Shown piece by piece: positions 6,852-20,989 of a stretch of 22,794 bases of DNA. Every line of letters starts with the position of its first letter. Position 1 is the first letter of the stretch. The position numbers and the translations under genes are program-made. Source of the DNA: a virus; the IMG/VR virus record IMGVR_UViG_3300033571_003639, positions 1-22,794 of that record, one strand, 5' to 3'. Below the pieces are notes generated by a model, which had not been told where the DNA came from, did not search any database, and saw only the letters and a list, made by a program, of their open reading frames with translations.

Positions 6852-7300
6852 ACTGGGAGGAGGCGACTCCTGCAAGGGTGCAGCGAGTGGCGCAACGGAT
6901 GCGGCACCAGGACCGGCTGGAAGTGCTCTACAGCCACCAGTGGACGCCAGAGGAGGCGGTGCGGGAGAGCATGGCCCGCAGCTCTATCCAACGCTGCATC
7001 TGTGGGGATAATGGGCAGGCAGTCGGGCTTTGTGGAGTGGCGGAAGGCACGGTGATCTGGCTGCTGGCAACCGATGAGTTGTTGGCCACCGCGAGCCATC
7101 GCCGGCAGTTCATCCGTGGCGCCATGGAGTGGGTGAACGGGTTGCTGGAGAGCAATGAGTTTGAGGTGCTGGAGAACTGGGTGCTGGCAAGCAACACGGT
7201 GTCGCTGCAGTGGCTGCAGCATCTGGGCTTCAGGGTTGACGTAGCGGCACCGCTGGGCCGCAGCGCCCAACTGTTCTGCCACGTCTGGAGGGCCTTCTGA
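6848..7300 (+). CDS. Internal virion protein A, T7 gp13-position protein, GNAT-like
   Basis: This 150-residue protein sits where T7 has gp13. The C-terminal third, WVLASNTVSLQWLQHLGF, resembles the end of GNAT acetyltransferase folds, where an Asn precedes a helix ending in GF. The acetyl-CoA loop (Q/RxxGxG/A) is not evident: the nearest match is GQAVGLCGVAEG at residues 56-67. Structural use of the fold, as in gp13-type proteins, is therefore more likely than catalysis. The frame is open far upstream, but that part runs through the gp12-type gene in a shifted frame. The ATG at 6848, overlapping the gp12-type stop by four bases, is the sensible start. Confidence 0.75.
   Translation: MNWEEATPARVQRVAQRMRHQDRLEVLYSHQWTPEEAVRESMARSSIQRCICGDNGQAVGLCGVAEGTVIWLLATDELLATASHRRQFIRGAMEWVNGLLESNEFEVLENWVLASNTVSLQWLQHLGFRVDVAAPLGRSAQLFCHVWRAF
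6870..6883 (+). promoter_or_regulatory. Palindromic element CTGCA-AGGG-TGCAG (copy 3, inside a gene start)
   Basis: This perfect five-base inverted repeat begins 22 bases after the ATG of the gp13-type gene. It differs by one base from the copy at 20491. It is weaker evidence than the intergenic copies because it lies in coding sequence. Confidence 0.25.
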
Positions 7301-14870: not shown

Positions 14871-17800
14871 ATGACCGCCAACAACTGCGATGACGTGTTC
14901 AAGCAGCTCCAAGAGCTGCAGCAGGACAAGCAAAAGCTGCAGGACGAACTTCAGGACATGGAGCGGCAGCTTGCTGCGGCTGGCATCCGCCGCCAGCCAC
15001 CCGCCACAGAAGGCGGCGTGGTGCTTCCGGGGCGTGATGGCAGGCCCCGCGAGCTGAGCGGCAAGGACATCGAGCAGGGGTACAAGCAACTCGTCAGCAC
15101 CCTTTCCTCAACTGAGGTGGACGAGCTGGTGGACCGTGGGTTTGAGATCTTGGCCAGGCCGGTAGGCAGCGAGGGCCGGTTCCAGAACTACGACCGCATC
15201 CTCCGCGAAGTGGACGTGAGCACGATGGAGGACTACGCCAGGTTGGCGGAAGCGCTTGGCATCACCCGCGAACGGATTGCTCCAGAGGACTACCACTTCA
15301 TCACGCAGAAGTACGGCCGGGAGCGGCTACTGAGCGTGGTAGAGACGTACTACCGCGAGCTTGGCGCCAGCGATGCCGAGCTGCTCGCCAAGGCTGCCGT
15401 CAAGACCGCGCCGTTCATCAACGCCGTGGAAAACAAGACGTGGCTGCGTTTCATGGCAGACCGCACGTTGCGGATGTATCTGGATTCCGCCGAGGCGATC
15501 ACCGACTTCATGCGGGCGGCCCCCAACTTTGACGTACCGGACGCCCTGAAACAGGAAGCGTTCCGCAACTACAAGCTGGCGCTGGTGCTGACACGCCACG
15601 ACAGCCTGGCCAACCGCAGGGTGGCACAGGCACTGCGCAGCCAGCAGGAGGAGATTCTGGGCCTAGAGCAGTTCCAGCTGGATTTGGGCGATGAAGGCGA
15701 GGAGAAGCTGCGAGAGGCAATCGGCATGACTGCCAAGGATCTGGACAAGGACGAGCACTTCAGCCGGGTGCTGCAGGCGATTGATGACAACGACGTGACG
15801 CAGCTTGATCTGGTGATTGATACCGCAAAGATGGATGGCCTGGATCCAAAGTCCAGCTTGAAGAAGGATTGGTTCAACACCCACATGCGGATGGCCACCG
15901 CACTGGTGAAGGACAGCCAGCTCGGGAACCTGCAGACGCAAGCCCTAAACGCAGAGAGCAACACTGCCATGTTCTTCTTTGGGCCGCTGCAGCAGACGGT
16001 CTACAACGGCTTCCGGCTGACTCCTGTTGCCACCAGCTTGACGAGGGGGCCGCTGCTGGAGGCGGCTGAGATCACGTCAGGAGCGTTCAGGTATGCGCTG
16101 GATACCTTCCGCGCCACATGGAAACGGGATCTGCAGCGGGTGTTCCAAACAGGCGTCAGCCATTACAGCGGCAACCTCGACACCTACGGGAAGAACCTGC
16201 TGACGAACAAGCAGGAACTGGATGACATGCAGGCAATCCTCGACATGCCATACCAGCAGACAAGGGGCAAGTACACGCAACTGCTGCACCCTTACAACCA
16301 CGCGATCTTCACCAACAAGTTGCAGGCTGCGGCAAGGATTCTGGCGCTGACCAAGCCCAGCGGTACTGCCAAAACCGGCATGAGCCGGATTGAAGCAGCT
16401 TGGGCGGCGCTTGGTATTGATCGCGGCCAAGGGGTACAGCGTATCCGCGCCCAAGACATTGACATGTACGTGCCATGGAAGCCCTTTCTGCGGGGCATGG
16501 CGGTCATTGACGAGGTAAGCGGCAAGTTTCAGTACCTGTTCAAGCTCAAGGCTGACTTGGAAGTAAAGGCCCGGCTGGAAGGAGCGCAGCTTGGCCTGTT
16601 TGACAACAAGGATCGAGCAGCATGGGTGCAGCAGCAGCTTGATGATGCGATCTATCAGGCCACACCCTCTGAGAACGACATCAAGGCGTTCAGGAAGCAG
16701 CACGGCATCAAAGGCAGCGACATGACGGACGATCAGATTGCCGAGCACTTGGCAGAGCAGAATCTGGAGGGCGCCGCAACACTGGCCACGCAGGAGTCCA
16801 TCAATGCCTTGGATTACTCAGCAGGGATGCGATTCCAAAATGCACCAAAAGAAGGGTTCGGCAAGTTGGCCGATACCTCGATGATGGGCCTAAGGAAGAA
16901 CTGGCTTGTTGATCGCTACCTGATGCCCTATTGGCGCTCGCCATGGATGGGGATGCTGTTCGACCATCGGCTGGCAACCTTTGCGATCTGGGACACGGCC
17001 AGAGTGTTTGGCGGCAAAGACCCATCGCCAGAACTGGTGGCCCGCACCAAGGCGGCGTGGGCGATGAGCGGTGCGGTGCTAGGCGTGTTCGGGATGCTGG
17101 ATGCTGCAGGGCACGTCCGAGGCAGCACGGATTCTGACGTGAGCAAGCGCAACACACTCTTTGGCATCAGGCTGGCTGGCGTGCCGGTCCTCAACACGCT
17201 GTTCTTGTGGAAGGACATTCTGGAGACTGGCAAGGCTTCGATCAGCAATGAGTACGACGGCCAAGAGCTTGCGACGGCTTGGATGAAAGTGATGACGGGG
17301 CACATCATGCGCCAGACCGGCATCGCTCAAATCCAGCTTCTGACGGACGCCATGCTGGACGGCACCCAGCGGGGCGGTGAGAAGCTGCGCAAGCTGGTGG
17401 CGTTCATGGGGTCAGGGCAAATCCCGTTCATTGGTGCCGAGAGGAACCTGGAACGAGCAACCGGGACAGATCGCAACAGCTTCTACCGCGATGCGCCTGA
17501 CACGGCACAGCAGCAGTATCTGCTGGGCAAGGACGATCCGTTGGCCAAGATCGAGCAATCGCTGCGGGAGCTTGCCTATGACTCCATGCCGGCTGTGGCG
17601 GCCTTCACGCAAGGGCAGCGGAAGCTGACCGATCACCTTGGCACTCCGATCGGCCACATCAACGGAGTGGATCTGTCCAGGGCCATCCCTTTCTTCCCGG
17701 TGGCTTGGCCAAAAGGGAAAGTCAACGAGGTGGTGTATGGCGAGCTGGACGCCCAGGACATGCTCGATCCCCCTCCAGCGCTGCTGAGCCGCACACTCAA

Positions 17801-18365
17801 TGGCGTTGCGATGTCCGATCAACTCCAGCAGGAGTACAACGGCATCATCGGGAGCATCAAGGGGGATCCGAAACTGCCGCCCAGCGCACGCCTCAACCTG
17901 GCCGGCAAGACGCTCCAGGTGCGCATTTCGATGCCCGTTGAGACGGTGACGGCGCAGGGCGTCCGCATCCGCAAGGACGGAGGGGCGTCCCTGCCGCTGG
18001 CTCAGATCCTCGACAAGGCGACAAAGGGCCGCACCCGAAAGGAAGCGCTCTACGCCCTGTTTACCAGCCCGCAGTACCAGCAGTTTGAGGACGACCCCTC
18101 AACGATGGCGAATCCGCCTGGAGGGCTGCCCAAACCGATGCGCAGGCAGCGGGTGGCCCAGAAGCTGATCCGCGGCATCACGGACTACTACGACCTGCTG
18201 ACACAGGACGAGCTGGAGCGCCGCGCTGCTGATGGCCGCAGCCAGGCCGCCAAGGAGTACAGCCAGGCACTGACAGGTATGAGCAGGGCTGCAATGGAGC
18301 AGGGGTTGGAGCAGATCAAACCCACGGCGCGAATCTTGAGCAGTCCAGCAAGTCCGGCAGAATAG
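14871..18365 (+). CDS. Very large internal virion protein, gp16-like C-terminal partner
   Basis: This is an 1164-residue protein read two bases after the previous stop, with GAACAGGAGG upstream. It starts with a short coiled coil (residues 8-38, KQLQELQQDKQKLQDELQDM). A long helical body follows, and a hydrophobic Ala/Gly segment AWAMSGAVLGVFGMLDAAG lies near residues 725-745. No enzyme motif is recognised. Its size, helical nature and place between the internal proteins and the tail fibre suggest a core or ejection protein corresponding to part of T7 gp16. Whether it and the upstream gene arose by splitting one gp16-type gene cannot be told from this sequence alone. Confidence 0.7.
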   Translation: MTANNCDDVFKQLQELQQDKQKLQDELQDMERQLAAAGIRRQPPATEGGVVLPGRDGRPRELSGKDIEQGYKQLVSTLSSTEVDELVDRGFEILARPVGSEGRFQNYDRILREVDVSTMEDYARLAEALGITRERIAPEDYHFITQKYGRERLLSVVETYYRELGASDAELLAKAAVKTAPFINAVENKTWLRFMADRTLRMYLDSAEAITDFMRAAPNFDVPDALKQEAFRNYKLALVLTRHDSLANRRVAQALRSQQEEILGLEQFQLDLGDEGEEKLREAIGMTAKDLDKDEHFSRVLQAIDDNDVTQLDLVIDTAKMDGLDPKSSLKKDWFNTHMRMATALVKDSQLGNLQTQALNAESNTAMFFFGPLQQTVYNGFRLTPVATSLTRGPLLEAAEITSGAFRYALDTFRATWKRDLQRVFQTGVSHYSGNLDTYGKNLLTNKQELDDMQAILDMPYQQTRGKYTQLLHPYNHAIFTNKLQAAARILALTKPSGTAKTGMSRIEAAWAALGIDRGQGVQRIRAQDIDMYVPWKPFLRGMAVIDEVSGKFQYLFKLKADLEVKARLEGAQLGLFDNKDRAAWVQQQLDDAIYQATPSENDIKAFRKQHGIKGSDMTDDQIAEHLAEQNLEGAATLATQESINALDYSAGMRFQNAPKEGFGKLADTSMMGLRKNWLVDRYLMPYWRSPWMGMLFDHRLATFAIWDTARVFGGKDPSPELVARTKAAWAMSGAVLGVFGMLDAAGHVRGSTDSDVSKRNTLFGIRLAGVPVLNTLFLWKDILETGKASISNEYDGQELATAWMKVMTGHIMRQTGIAQIQLLTDAMLDGTQRGGEKLRKLVAFMGSGQIPFIGAERNLERATGTDRNSFYRDAPDTAQQQYLLGKDDPLAKIEQSLRELAYDSMPAVAAFTQGQRKLTDHLGTPIGHINGVDLSRAIPFFPVAWPKGKVNEVVYGELDAQDMLDPPPALLSRTLNGVAMSDQLQQEYNGIIGSIKGDPKLPPSARLNLAGKTLQVRISMPVETVTAQGVRIRKDGGASLPLAQILDKATKGRTRKEALYALFTSPQYQQFEDDPSTMANPPGGLPKPMRRQRVAQKLIRGITDYYDLLTQDELERRAADGRSQAAKEYSQALTGMSRAAMEQGLEQIKPTARILSSPASPAE
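18336..18363 (+). promoter_or_regulatory. Possible sigma70-type promoter ahead of the tail fibre gene
   Basis: TTGAGC (18336-18341), 16-base spacer, CAGAAT (18358-18363). It lies at the end of the preceding gene, and T7 has phi-17 at the equivalent position. Transcription would start inside the palindrome at 18365-18384. Confidence 0.33.
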
Positions 18366-18388: not shown

Positions 18389-19825
18389 GTGCCCTACTCC
18401 TACGTCCAATACGCGGGCAGCGGCACCACGGGGCCCTTCACAGTGTCGTTCCCGTACCTGCTGCAGGAACATGTGAAGCTCTACAGGGGCCTCGATCTGC
18501 TGGCGGGCACCTACACGCAGTTGCTGGTGAGCGGCACGGACTACACGTGGACGAGTGGTACACAGGTGCAGCTCACCAGTGCGCTGGTGAATGGCACCAC
18601 GCTGACGATCCGGCGTGAGACACCGACCACCACCAGGCTGGTGGACTGGAGTGATGGCAGCAACCTGAACGCCGCTGACATGGACACGGCGGATCTGCAG
18701 AACTTCTACGCGATCCAGGATCAGCAGGACAAGAACGAGGTCGTCACCGCAGCGGGGATCACCACCGCCGCCAATGCAACGGCAGCGCTGAACGCCGTGA
18801 ACGCCGCCTTGCCGTATGCGGCGATTGGAACTGTTGCCGGGATCCCGGCCGGGACCAATGGCGCCAGGATCGAAGTGGCGAATAGCACGGGCATCGAAGC
18901 GTTCAGCCCGCTTGCAGGACGGCCTGCGGGCTTTGTGGGCAGCTCGCAGATCCGGGTGCGGCTGACGTACACCACGGCTGGCAGCACGTGGAACTGGGTG
19001 GACTATGCCGTTGCGGATCCCGATGGCCGGTACGTTCGGCAGTCGAACATCAGCAGCAGCGTCAGCAGCACGTCCACCACAACGGTGGCGGCATCGGCGG
19101 CAGTGAAGACCGCAAAGGATGCGGCAGATGCTGCGCAGAGCACGGCCAACAGCAGGGCCCCGTTGGCATCGCCAACATTTACAGGGACCGTCACGATTCC
19201 GGCTGGGGCGAGTATCAGTGGGTTTGCCCCTCTGGCATCGCCGACTTTTACGGGCACCCCAGCGGCACCAACGGCGACCGCAGGGACCAACACCACGCAA
19301 CTGGCGACAACGGCATTTGCGAATACAGCCGCTGCCAATGCGTCCCTGCCGCTCGGAGCGGTTATTCCGTTCGCCGGTGCCACTGCTCCGGCTGGATGGT
19401 TGAAAGCCAATGGCGACACCCTTCCGAACGGCTCCGGCACGGTGCAAGGGATTACGGCCGATTTTTCGGCGCTGTACGCAATCGTGGGTGCCACTTACGG
19501 AGCGGCTGGCCGGTTGCCGGACTTGCGCGGTGAGTTCGTCCGAGGCTGGGATGATGGTAGAGGGGTTGATGCAGGCCGAGTTCGTGGTTTACCGCAGACG
19601 GATCTGATTAAGCAGCACTATCATAATACCGTAGCGGGCGACAATGGCGGCAACAACGATAATACTAACTCCCAAGCGCAAACTGACCCTTCCGATTTTT
19701 CGCAGAGTGGATTTAATACACGCAGTACCGGCTGGGACGGTGCAAACTACCTAGGAGGTGAAACCCGGCCTCGCAACATCGCGTTGCTGTACTGCATCAA
19801 GTACACTTTTTTTTTGACCACGTAG
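18389..19825 (+). CDS. Tail fibre protein: T7 gp17-type N-terminus, tail-collar C-terminus
   Basis: This 478-residue fibre should attach to the tail nozzle and recognise the host. Residues 1-120 match the T7 tail-fibre attachment domain: PFTVSFPYLLQEHVKLY, GTDYTW, LTIRRETPTTTRLVDWSDGS and LNAADMDTADLQNFYAIQD. A short helical neck (about 225-255) follows, then two copies of APLASPTFTGT (near residues 258 and 281), which are trimeric-fibre repeats. Residues about 325-395 are a phage tail-collar domain: GAVIPFAGATAPAGWLKANG, then LYAIVGATYGAAGRLPDLRG. The end is the usual RPRNIALLYCIKY. The start is GTG, without a clear ribosome binding site. The last 80 residues have lower GC than the rest. The T9 run six codons before the stop may allow a longer product (see 19807-19815). 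Confidence 0.9.
   Translation: MPYSYVQYAGSGTTGPFTVSFPYLLQEHVKLYRGLDLLAGTYTQLLVSGTDYTWTSGTQVQLTSALVNGTTLTIRRETPTTTRLVDWSDGSNLNAADMDTADLQNFYAIQDQQDKNEVVTAAGITTAANATAALNAVNAALPYAAIGTVAGIPAGTNGARIEVANSTGIEAFSPLAGRPAGFVGSSQIRVRLTYTTAGSTWNWVDYAVADPDGRYVRQSNISSSVSSTSTTTVAASAAVKTAKDAADAAQSTANSRAPLASPTFTGTVTIPAGASISGFAPLASPTFTGTPAAPTATAGTNTTQLATTAFANTAAANASLPLGAVIPFAGATAPAGWLKANGDTLPNGSGTVQGITADFSALYAIVGATYGAAGRLPDLRGEFVRGWDDGRGVDAGRVRGLPQTDLIKQHYHNTVAGDNGGNNDNTNSQAQTDPSDFSQSGFNTRSTGWDGANYLGGETRPRNIALLYCIKYTFFLTT
19807..19815 (+). other. T9 slippery run; candidate -1 frameshift site
   Basis: Nine T in a GC-rich gene, including T-TTT-TTT in the fibre's zero frame (19807-19813). A -1 ribosomal slip, or a polymerase slip adding one U, bypasses the TAG at 19823 and reads FDHVVGGGGGGSGGEP straight into the downstream ORF. 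The predicted fusion is about 658 residues. GG-repeats downstream (19828-19857) could form a stimulatory structure. Confidence 0.55.
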
Positions 19826-19860
19826 TTGGCGGTGGCGGTGGCGGTAGCGGTGGGGAACCG

Positions 19861-20364
19861 ATGCTTGCCTTCAGCGGCGGAACATCACTGGCCTGGGACA
19901 TTGACTACGTGTGGTTCTACGGGTTTAGCTTTACACTTGCATCAGCCAAACAGATTAAGGCGGTTGGCTTCTACGATGCTGGCGGCAACGGCCTTGGCTA
20001 TGACTACGAGATTTGGGTGATTAGTGGTTGGAGTGGTTCAGGTTATGGTACGGCCCGTAAGCTCACGACAGACAACGATGAATATATCTATGTCATGGGT
20101 GGCACCCAATCTGCACTTGACGGAGTGTGGCGCAAATCCACAATTAGCAATGGAGCAACGCTTGCGGCGGGAACCTATGCCGTCATCGCTACAAGGGAGT
20201 ACGGGATTTACGGCGACAATGACCCAATGATTACAAACGCCAGCAGTGTTACGCCATTATCGGGTGTGACCATCAATGGAGCCTTTGCGCTTGACTATAA
20301 CGGGAACGTGATTGATACCAGCGGCGACAGCAACGGCTACTTTGGTCCGATGCTGTTCTTCTGA
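19861..20364 (+). CDS. Adhesin-like domain ORF, possible C-terminal extension of the tail fibre
   Basis: This 167-residue ORF is rich in Gly, Tyr, Thr and Asp. The text FSFTLASAKQIKAVGFYDAG, then GLGYDYEIWVISG, then ATLAAGTYAVIATREYG resembles beta-sandwich domains of the DUF4082 kind found in secreted and surface proteins (recalled pattern, moderate certainty). It has no signal peptide or catalytic motif. Its frame is open upstream through a glycine-rich linker to the T9 run at the end of the tail fibre gene, so it may be made as part of that fibre. Separate initiation at ATG 19861 after GGTGGGG is the alternative. Its base composition is clearly more AT-rich than its neighbours, which suggests recent exchange. 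It probably contributes to host binding. Confidence 0.65.
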   Translation: MLAFSGGTSLAWDIDYVWFYGFSFTLASAKQIKAVGFYDAGGNGLGYDYEIWVISGWSGSGYGTARKLTTDNDEYIYVMGGTQSALDGVWRKSTISNGATLAAGTYAVIATREYGIYGDNDPMITNASSVTPLSGVTINGAFALDYNGNVIDTSGDSNGYFGPMLFF

Positions 20365-20503
20365 TCCGAACCGGGAAAACTGCAACAGATCAAGTGATCG
20401 GCTAATTGATTGGCAACGATTCAGACAAAAGCACGGTTTGTCGCTGTTAGCCGTGTCAAGCCTTGCCTCTGACCTAGAATAGCCGCAGCTCTACAAGGGT
20501 GCA
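20365..20503 (+). other. Non-coding gap between fibre and lysis-type genes
   Basis: This is 139 bases without a credible gene. It holds an inverted repeat GATCA-AG-TGATC (20388-20399), a hairpin CACGGTT (20432-20438) / AGCCGTG (20449-20455) without a T-run, and a -10-like TAGAAT (20475-20480) with no good -35. It may be a promoter or attenuator region; nothing is decisive. Confidence 0.4.
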
Positions 20504-20504
20504 G
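20491..20504 (+). promoter_or_regulatory. Near-palindrome CTACA-AGGG-TGCAG (copy 5)
   Basis: One base differs from the copy at 6870 and from a perfect repeat. It overlaps the GTG start at 20504 and contains the AGGG ribosome binding site. AGAATAGC lies just upstream, as before the copy at 18365. Confidence 0.35.
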
Positions 20505-20710
20505 TGGGCGTTGCCGAATCCCTGGCCTTGGCGGGCCTTGGTCTGACAGTCCTGGGCTTTGCCGGGACCACCGTGGCCAGCGGGGTCAAGGCGCTCTGGG
20601 CCATCAGCAAGGGGCTCGGCACCTTTGAGGGCAAGATTTTGGAAATCCTCGCCCGCCACGAAACCACCCTTGACGACCACGAAGACCGGCTGCGGGCCGG
20701 CAAGCTCTGA
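20504..20710 (+). CDS. Small membrane protein, holin candidate
   Basis: This is a 68-residue protein with one hydrophobic helix (residues 6-31, including LALAGLGLTVLGFAG), then a charged amphipathic tail with GKILEILARHETTLDDHEDR and a basic end. Size, topology and position after the tail fibre match T7 gp17.5, the class II holin, but no sequence signature proves it. GTG start with AGGG five bases upstream. It overlaps the next gene by one base, as holin/partner pairs often do. Confidence 0.5.
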   Translation: MGVAESLALAGLGLTVLGFAGTTVASGVKALWAISKGLGTFEGKILEILARHETTLDDHEDRLRAGKL

Positions 20711-20914: not shown

Positions 20915-20989
20915 CAGAATGGGAGGACAGTGATGGTGTGCCCTGCCAATGACTTCGACGTTTGGCAAATGGCCAGTCTGTGGGCCTGA
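20909..20989 (+). CDS. Possible short overlapping ORF with a good ribosome binding site
   Basis: GGGAGG (20921-20926) sits six bases before ATG 20933, which opens an 18-codon frame (MVCPANDFDVWQMASLWA) ending at 20989. The same frame is open from ATG 20909, the wider span given here. It overlaps the start of the next gene in another frame. It may be a leader that couples translation, or the start of the next gene may be misjudged. Confidence 0.25.
   Translation: MQQNGRTVMVCPANDFDVWQMASLWA

Follow-up and report, generated by a model that had tools for sequence, protein, structure and literature searches.

The tail fibre gene of a T7-type podophage and the 167-aa open reading frame (ORF) that follows it could be two halves of one modular fibre gene, lying one base out of frame across a run of nine T, with slippage at the run giving mixed short and long fibres; we hold this reading tentatively. 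The underlying observation is real and non-random, and the proposal that the two ORFs belong to one fibre gains independent support from comparison of sequences and is plausible, albeit unproven.

The phage and its probable host

The analysed window, a viral record of the IMG/VR type with 22,794 bases, carries T7-type podophage genes for the portal, capsid, tail tube, nozzle, large internal virion proteins, and tail fibre. Of the isolated phages, the freshwater Synechococcus phage S-SRP02 is the nearest (78% identity of the nozzle protein), and therefore the host is probably a freshwater picocyanobacterium. S-SRP02 encodes a T7-type RNA polymerase (PF00940, 4.3e-50); the window itself contains no polymerase gene. 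A presumed internal virion protein of 1164 aa (14871–18365) has relatives only in AP013547, among phages, and in contig L002, and gave no match above threshold in Pfam, PHROG, or NCBIfam. Motifs resembling CTGCAAGGGTGCAG were considered as regulatory elements and rejected, since those at 6870 and 20495 read as a Shine-Dalgarno sequence plus a start codon.

In the annotation of S-SRP02, the fibre (L201:771-860, MW822601) is split into two overlapping genes, since a 30-nt tandem repeat has one copy that is short of two bases. This break could be an error of short-read assembly or a second slippage-type frame break in the fibre family.

The fibre gene and the T9 run

The tail fibre gene (18389–19825, plus strand) encodes 478 aa as assembled and was delimited by matches to PF03906 (1.8e-23) and PF07484 (3.4e-12) and by comparison of its end with 117 relatives. 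The Phage_T7_tail and Collar domains scored 83.4 and 46.5 bits, respectively, above the curated cut-offs of 25.2 and 24 bits. The T7 tail fibre N-terminal domain and the collar domain are followed by a CIKY motif at 19793–19804, the residues TFFLTT, and a stop codon at 19823–19825, the 3′ sequence being CTG TAC TGC ATC AAG TAC ACT TTT TTT TTG ACC ACG TAG. The run indicated by the original prediction comprises exactly nine T (19807–19815, plus strand) and is exceptional for this DNA: the second-longest homopolymer in the window has six bases, and a dinucleotide model predicts 0.0035 runs of at least nine T. The stop had been placed six codons after the run; six is the number of residues after CIKY, but only two full codons follow the run itself.

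Together with the homopolymer statistics, simulation of run lengths identifies the run as a slippage-prone joint of two reading frames. Runs of 7 and 10 T yielded joined products of 657 and 658 aa, and runs of 8, 9, 11, and 12 T yielded short fibres of 475–479 aa. The expected pair of a short fibre (478 residues) and an extended one (about 658) was thus reproduced, a single additional T being enough to give one 658-aa protein.

The −1 frame and the downstream ORF

The −1 frame was expected to lead without a stop through a glycine-rich linker into the downstream ORF, and this is what the sequence contains. It is open from 19762 to 20361, ends with TGA at 20362–20364, and reads FFFDHVVGGGGGGSGGEP followed by MLAFSGG. 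The linker, DHVVGGGGGGSGGEP (Gly6-Ser; 19816–19860, plus strand), is in the same frame as the 167-aa domain and open through the T run; in the joined reading the residues across the joint of fibre and linker are KYTFFFDHVVGGG. The openness of the linker is by itself weak evidence, as the 45-nt stretch is open in 60% of dinucleotide shuffles. Six consecutive glycines in the linker frame were found in none of 5000 shuffles; because (GGCGGT)n is a repeat, the placement of the linker in the glycine frame is really only about a one-in-three event.

It had also been argued that such a linker would be needless unless the frames join. This is partly right, but in contig L007 an independent downstream gene contains VVGGGGGGG. 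This gene (L007:3107-4090), located directly 3′ of a collar fibre and overlapping the region of the fibre stop, is Gly-rich and has the motif YIVVGGGGGGG; its arrangement as a separate gene resembles the linker of the window.

The 167-aa ORF (19861–20364, plus strand), with an ATG at 19861, has a coding log-odds of +39.8 bits in its own frame and negative values in the remaining frames. It is presumed to be the C-terminal module of the long fibre, and its family is unplaced. No convincing relatives were found in phages, plasmids, viral contigs, genome contigs, PDB sequences, or about 400 genomes of one phylum. The sole hint, a match to DUF4082 (PF13313) of 13.3 bits, lies below the curated cut-off of 28.4, and a search for DUF4082 in 118 genomes recovered true members and left the window domain unplaced. 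A structure model from the single sequence was beta-rich, with a mean pLDDT of 42.6, too poor for a fold search. The earlier description of this domain as adhesin-like is unproven, no family having reached threshold; a role in host binding is suggested by its position at the end of the fibre.

Collar fibres normally end at CIKY

In all 117 relatives with a readable end (76 viral and 41 genome sequences) the stop codon stands at the end of the CIKY motif, a term that here covers CIKY, CIKF, CIKI, and similar endings, as well as IVRAA in a Pectobacterium group. Unusually, the window fibre has no stop after CIKY and runs on as TFFLTT. The conserved fibre fold thus ends at the Tyr codon at 19802–19804, and the window has lost the stop that follows it in the relatives.

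Collar proteins lacking a stop at CIKY were sought with a pattern that misses extensions whose first codon begins with T; of the 20 contigs returned, five have a single extra residue, and the rest continue in frame past CIKY into further domains. One lineage of collar fibres (L208, L209, L214–L218, and L221) carries two or three tandem collar domains or further domains, each joined by a Gly/Ser-rich linker after CIKY. As proposed for the window, an extra domain is joined after CIKY in L208, L209, L217, L221, and others, but these have a continuous frame, no T run, and unrelated added domains. One extended lineage shares with the window a Gly-rich linker a few residues beyond CIKY (CIKYQATSAGGGGGSLSN and CIKYQSTSSGGGAGVAF; CIKYQATSAGGGGGS-type, that is, QATSAGGGGGS-type), while another lineage reads CIKYATDAAVNYLG and one further fibre CIKYTQIQA. 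With ten T the window would read CIKYTFFFDHVVGGGGGGSGGEP, the layout of the Gly-linked lineage with a different added domain.

No T run after CIKY was found in collar fibres among the matches listed, nor in 91 further stretches; the few entries flagged in this search were, on inspection, not collar proteins. Likewise, glycine runs soon after TGCATHAARTAY occurred in 80 stretches, all of which except L209 represented other genes in another frame.

A cassette at the position of the lost stop

Searches with the preceding gene and the fibre N-terminus revealed no closer relatives in viral contigs; a sibling, contig L002, was found through the collar. Its identity to the window is 60% across 720 aa of the virion protein encoded before the fibre, 65% in the fibre N-terminus, and 61% in the collar. 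Its fibre ends with CIKY-TGA, and the next conserved gene, located about 60 nt downstream, is the counterpart of the window gene at about 20500, both sharing GLG.FE and DHEDRLR. This small gene (about 20500–20710 in the window), kept 3′ of the fibre in L002, has a product with a single hydrophobic segment and a C-terminus that is charged (DDHEDRLRAGKL) and is possibly a holin- or spanin-type lysis gene.

Comparison with L002 and a drop in G+C content delimit a cassette of about 0.65 kb that is present in the window and absent from L002 (19805–20485, plus strand; the right border is approximate). It starts exactly at the position of the lost fibre stop. The G+C content falls from 0.60–0.67 to 0.485–0.57 over 19500–20500, and the domain may therefore have been acquired together with the linker and the tip of the fibre.

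The two ORFs are regarded as halves of one gene mainly because a free-standing gene need not remove the fibre stop. The loss of the stop, the position of the cassette, and the in-frame Gly-linked precedents all fit the view that the linker and domain resemble a C-terminal extension that is to be joined to the fibre. Recombination would have attached the Gly-linker and the 167-aa domain directly to the final codon of a T7-type collar fibre in place of its stop, leaving the two halves of a modular fibre gene one base out of frame across the T9 run.

How the two frames might be joined

The long form would most likely be made by slippage adding one T/U, chiefly by a presumed T7-type phage RNA polymerase during late transcription. 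Short chains (475–479 aa) would then occur beside long ones (about 658 aa), and one form of the fibre would be locked whenever the run changed its length in the DNA, as it might occasionally do. The option of transcriptional slippage raised by the original prediction proved well motivated. Since the nearest isolate encodes a polymerase of the type known to slip heavily on T runs, this route fits better than a ribosomal frameshift. T7 RNA polymerase slips on four or more T, and on T runs its insertions rescued −1 reporters at up to 50% of the in-frame control, compared with about 10% for the Escherichia coli enzyme on T7/T8 runs (PMC6260861). The window resembles this system in that its run is long enough and one added base joins the frames, but the slippage was demonstrated with reporters under T7 RNA polymerase, not with cyanophage polymerases or the present gene. 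T7 RNA polymerase also deletes T efficiently (PMC6260861); here, deletion would give only short fibres, and this counts against slippage. So do the finding of no second phage with the T run, hence no conservation, and the odd FFF within the linker; moreover, the nine T may have been called wrongly or represent a minority, and a separate protein could start at ATG 19861. The specific proposal of a standing mixture of short and extended fibres, produced by slippage of the phage's own T7-type polymerase on a T9 run located exactly at the natural fibre end and giving mixed virion tips with no genetic switch, is graded as doubtful.

Other explanations place the cause elsewhere. The genome itself, or the majority of the population, may have a T10 run, the consensus being miscalled or a minority variant, and the gene would then encode one plain 658-aa fibre. 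Just one apparent frame break was noticed in the window, and it does coincide with the longest homopolymer; the in-frame Gly-linked extensions at the same joint in other phages need no slippage. However, nine-base runs are usually called correctly in a short-read consensus, with the reservation that the platform behind this record may differ, and we consider T10 rather unlikely. Less probable again is independent translation of the 167-aa ORF as its own gene from ATG 19861, with the linker as an ancestral leftover or a product of the repeat. The separate VVGGGGGGG gene adjoining the collar fibre in L007 is a precedent, and GGUGGGG just 5′ of the ATG could pair with the anti-Shine-Dalgarno sequence with an energy of −6.2 kcal/mol, close to that of the window gene at 20949; but 22% of random sites bind as well, and the loss of the fibre stop and the continuation of the open linker frame across the run into the fibre would be left unexplained. 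Also unlikely, and slightly more so, is heritable phase variation, in which changes of the T run during replication switch between short and long fibres. Run length does decide the frame, and receptor-binding proteins that vary in phase through polyG tracts are established in Campylobacter phages (Sorensen 2021, cited in PMC10579305 and PMC10877375), so that there, as in the window, homopolymer length sets the form of a host-binding protein. In contrast to those tracts, the window has a T9 run at the joint to an added domain and showed no length variants, the searches having yielded no further copy of the locus; nine T is also short for a hypermutable tract.

Programmed −1 ribosomal frameshifting, also put forward in the original prediction, is very improbable as the source of the long form. 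The slippery heptamer T TTT TTT (X XXY YYZ) is indeed present in the right frame at 19807–19813, and T7 and T3 shift by −1 near the end of gene 10 (PMC3276506), giving gp10A and gp10B, a short and a C-terminally extended virion protein much as envisaged here. Yet gp10 is a capsid protein and its shift ribosomal, whereas the window gene encodes a fibre with no signs of a ribosomal signal: the downstream RNA is ordinary for the window and shows no stability beyond that of shuffled sequences (z +1.3 and +0.3), an upstream Shine-Dalgarno sequence is absent (duplex of −0.2 kcal/mol), and the site is not conserved, no relative with the run having been found. A transcription terminator closing the fibre transcript is the least credible explanation and can be given almost no weight. 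A 6-bp hairpin (TGTACT-GCATCA-AGTACA, 19788–19805, plus strand) does lie one base 5′ of the nine T, but it is weak (−6.0 kcal/mol, only two G-C pairs), its stem is largely dictated by the conserved codons TAC TGC ATC AAG TAC, the terminator scan was negative, and neither the sibling L002 nor S-SRP02 has a T run there.

Implications for fibre evolution

Switches of a comparable kind have already been described in other phages, and for a broken poly-A tract in a methyltransferase gene of a Campylobacter phage, rescue by transcriptional slippage has been suggested (PMC2853527). The open-access literature yielded no report of slippage extending a tail fibre. Should the true run be T10, an error of a single base in a homopolymer call conceals from annotation that the fibre has two modules. 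If, as in the slippage reading that we tentatively prefer, the long form is made, two fibre tips would be obtained from one gene via a slippage-prone run at a module joint. A newly acquired domain could thereby be tested, or its use limited, at little cost, and homopolymers at module joints would then be worth seeking in other fibre genes.
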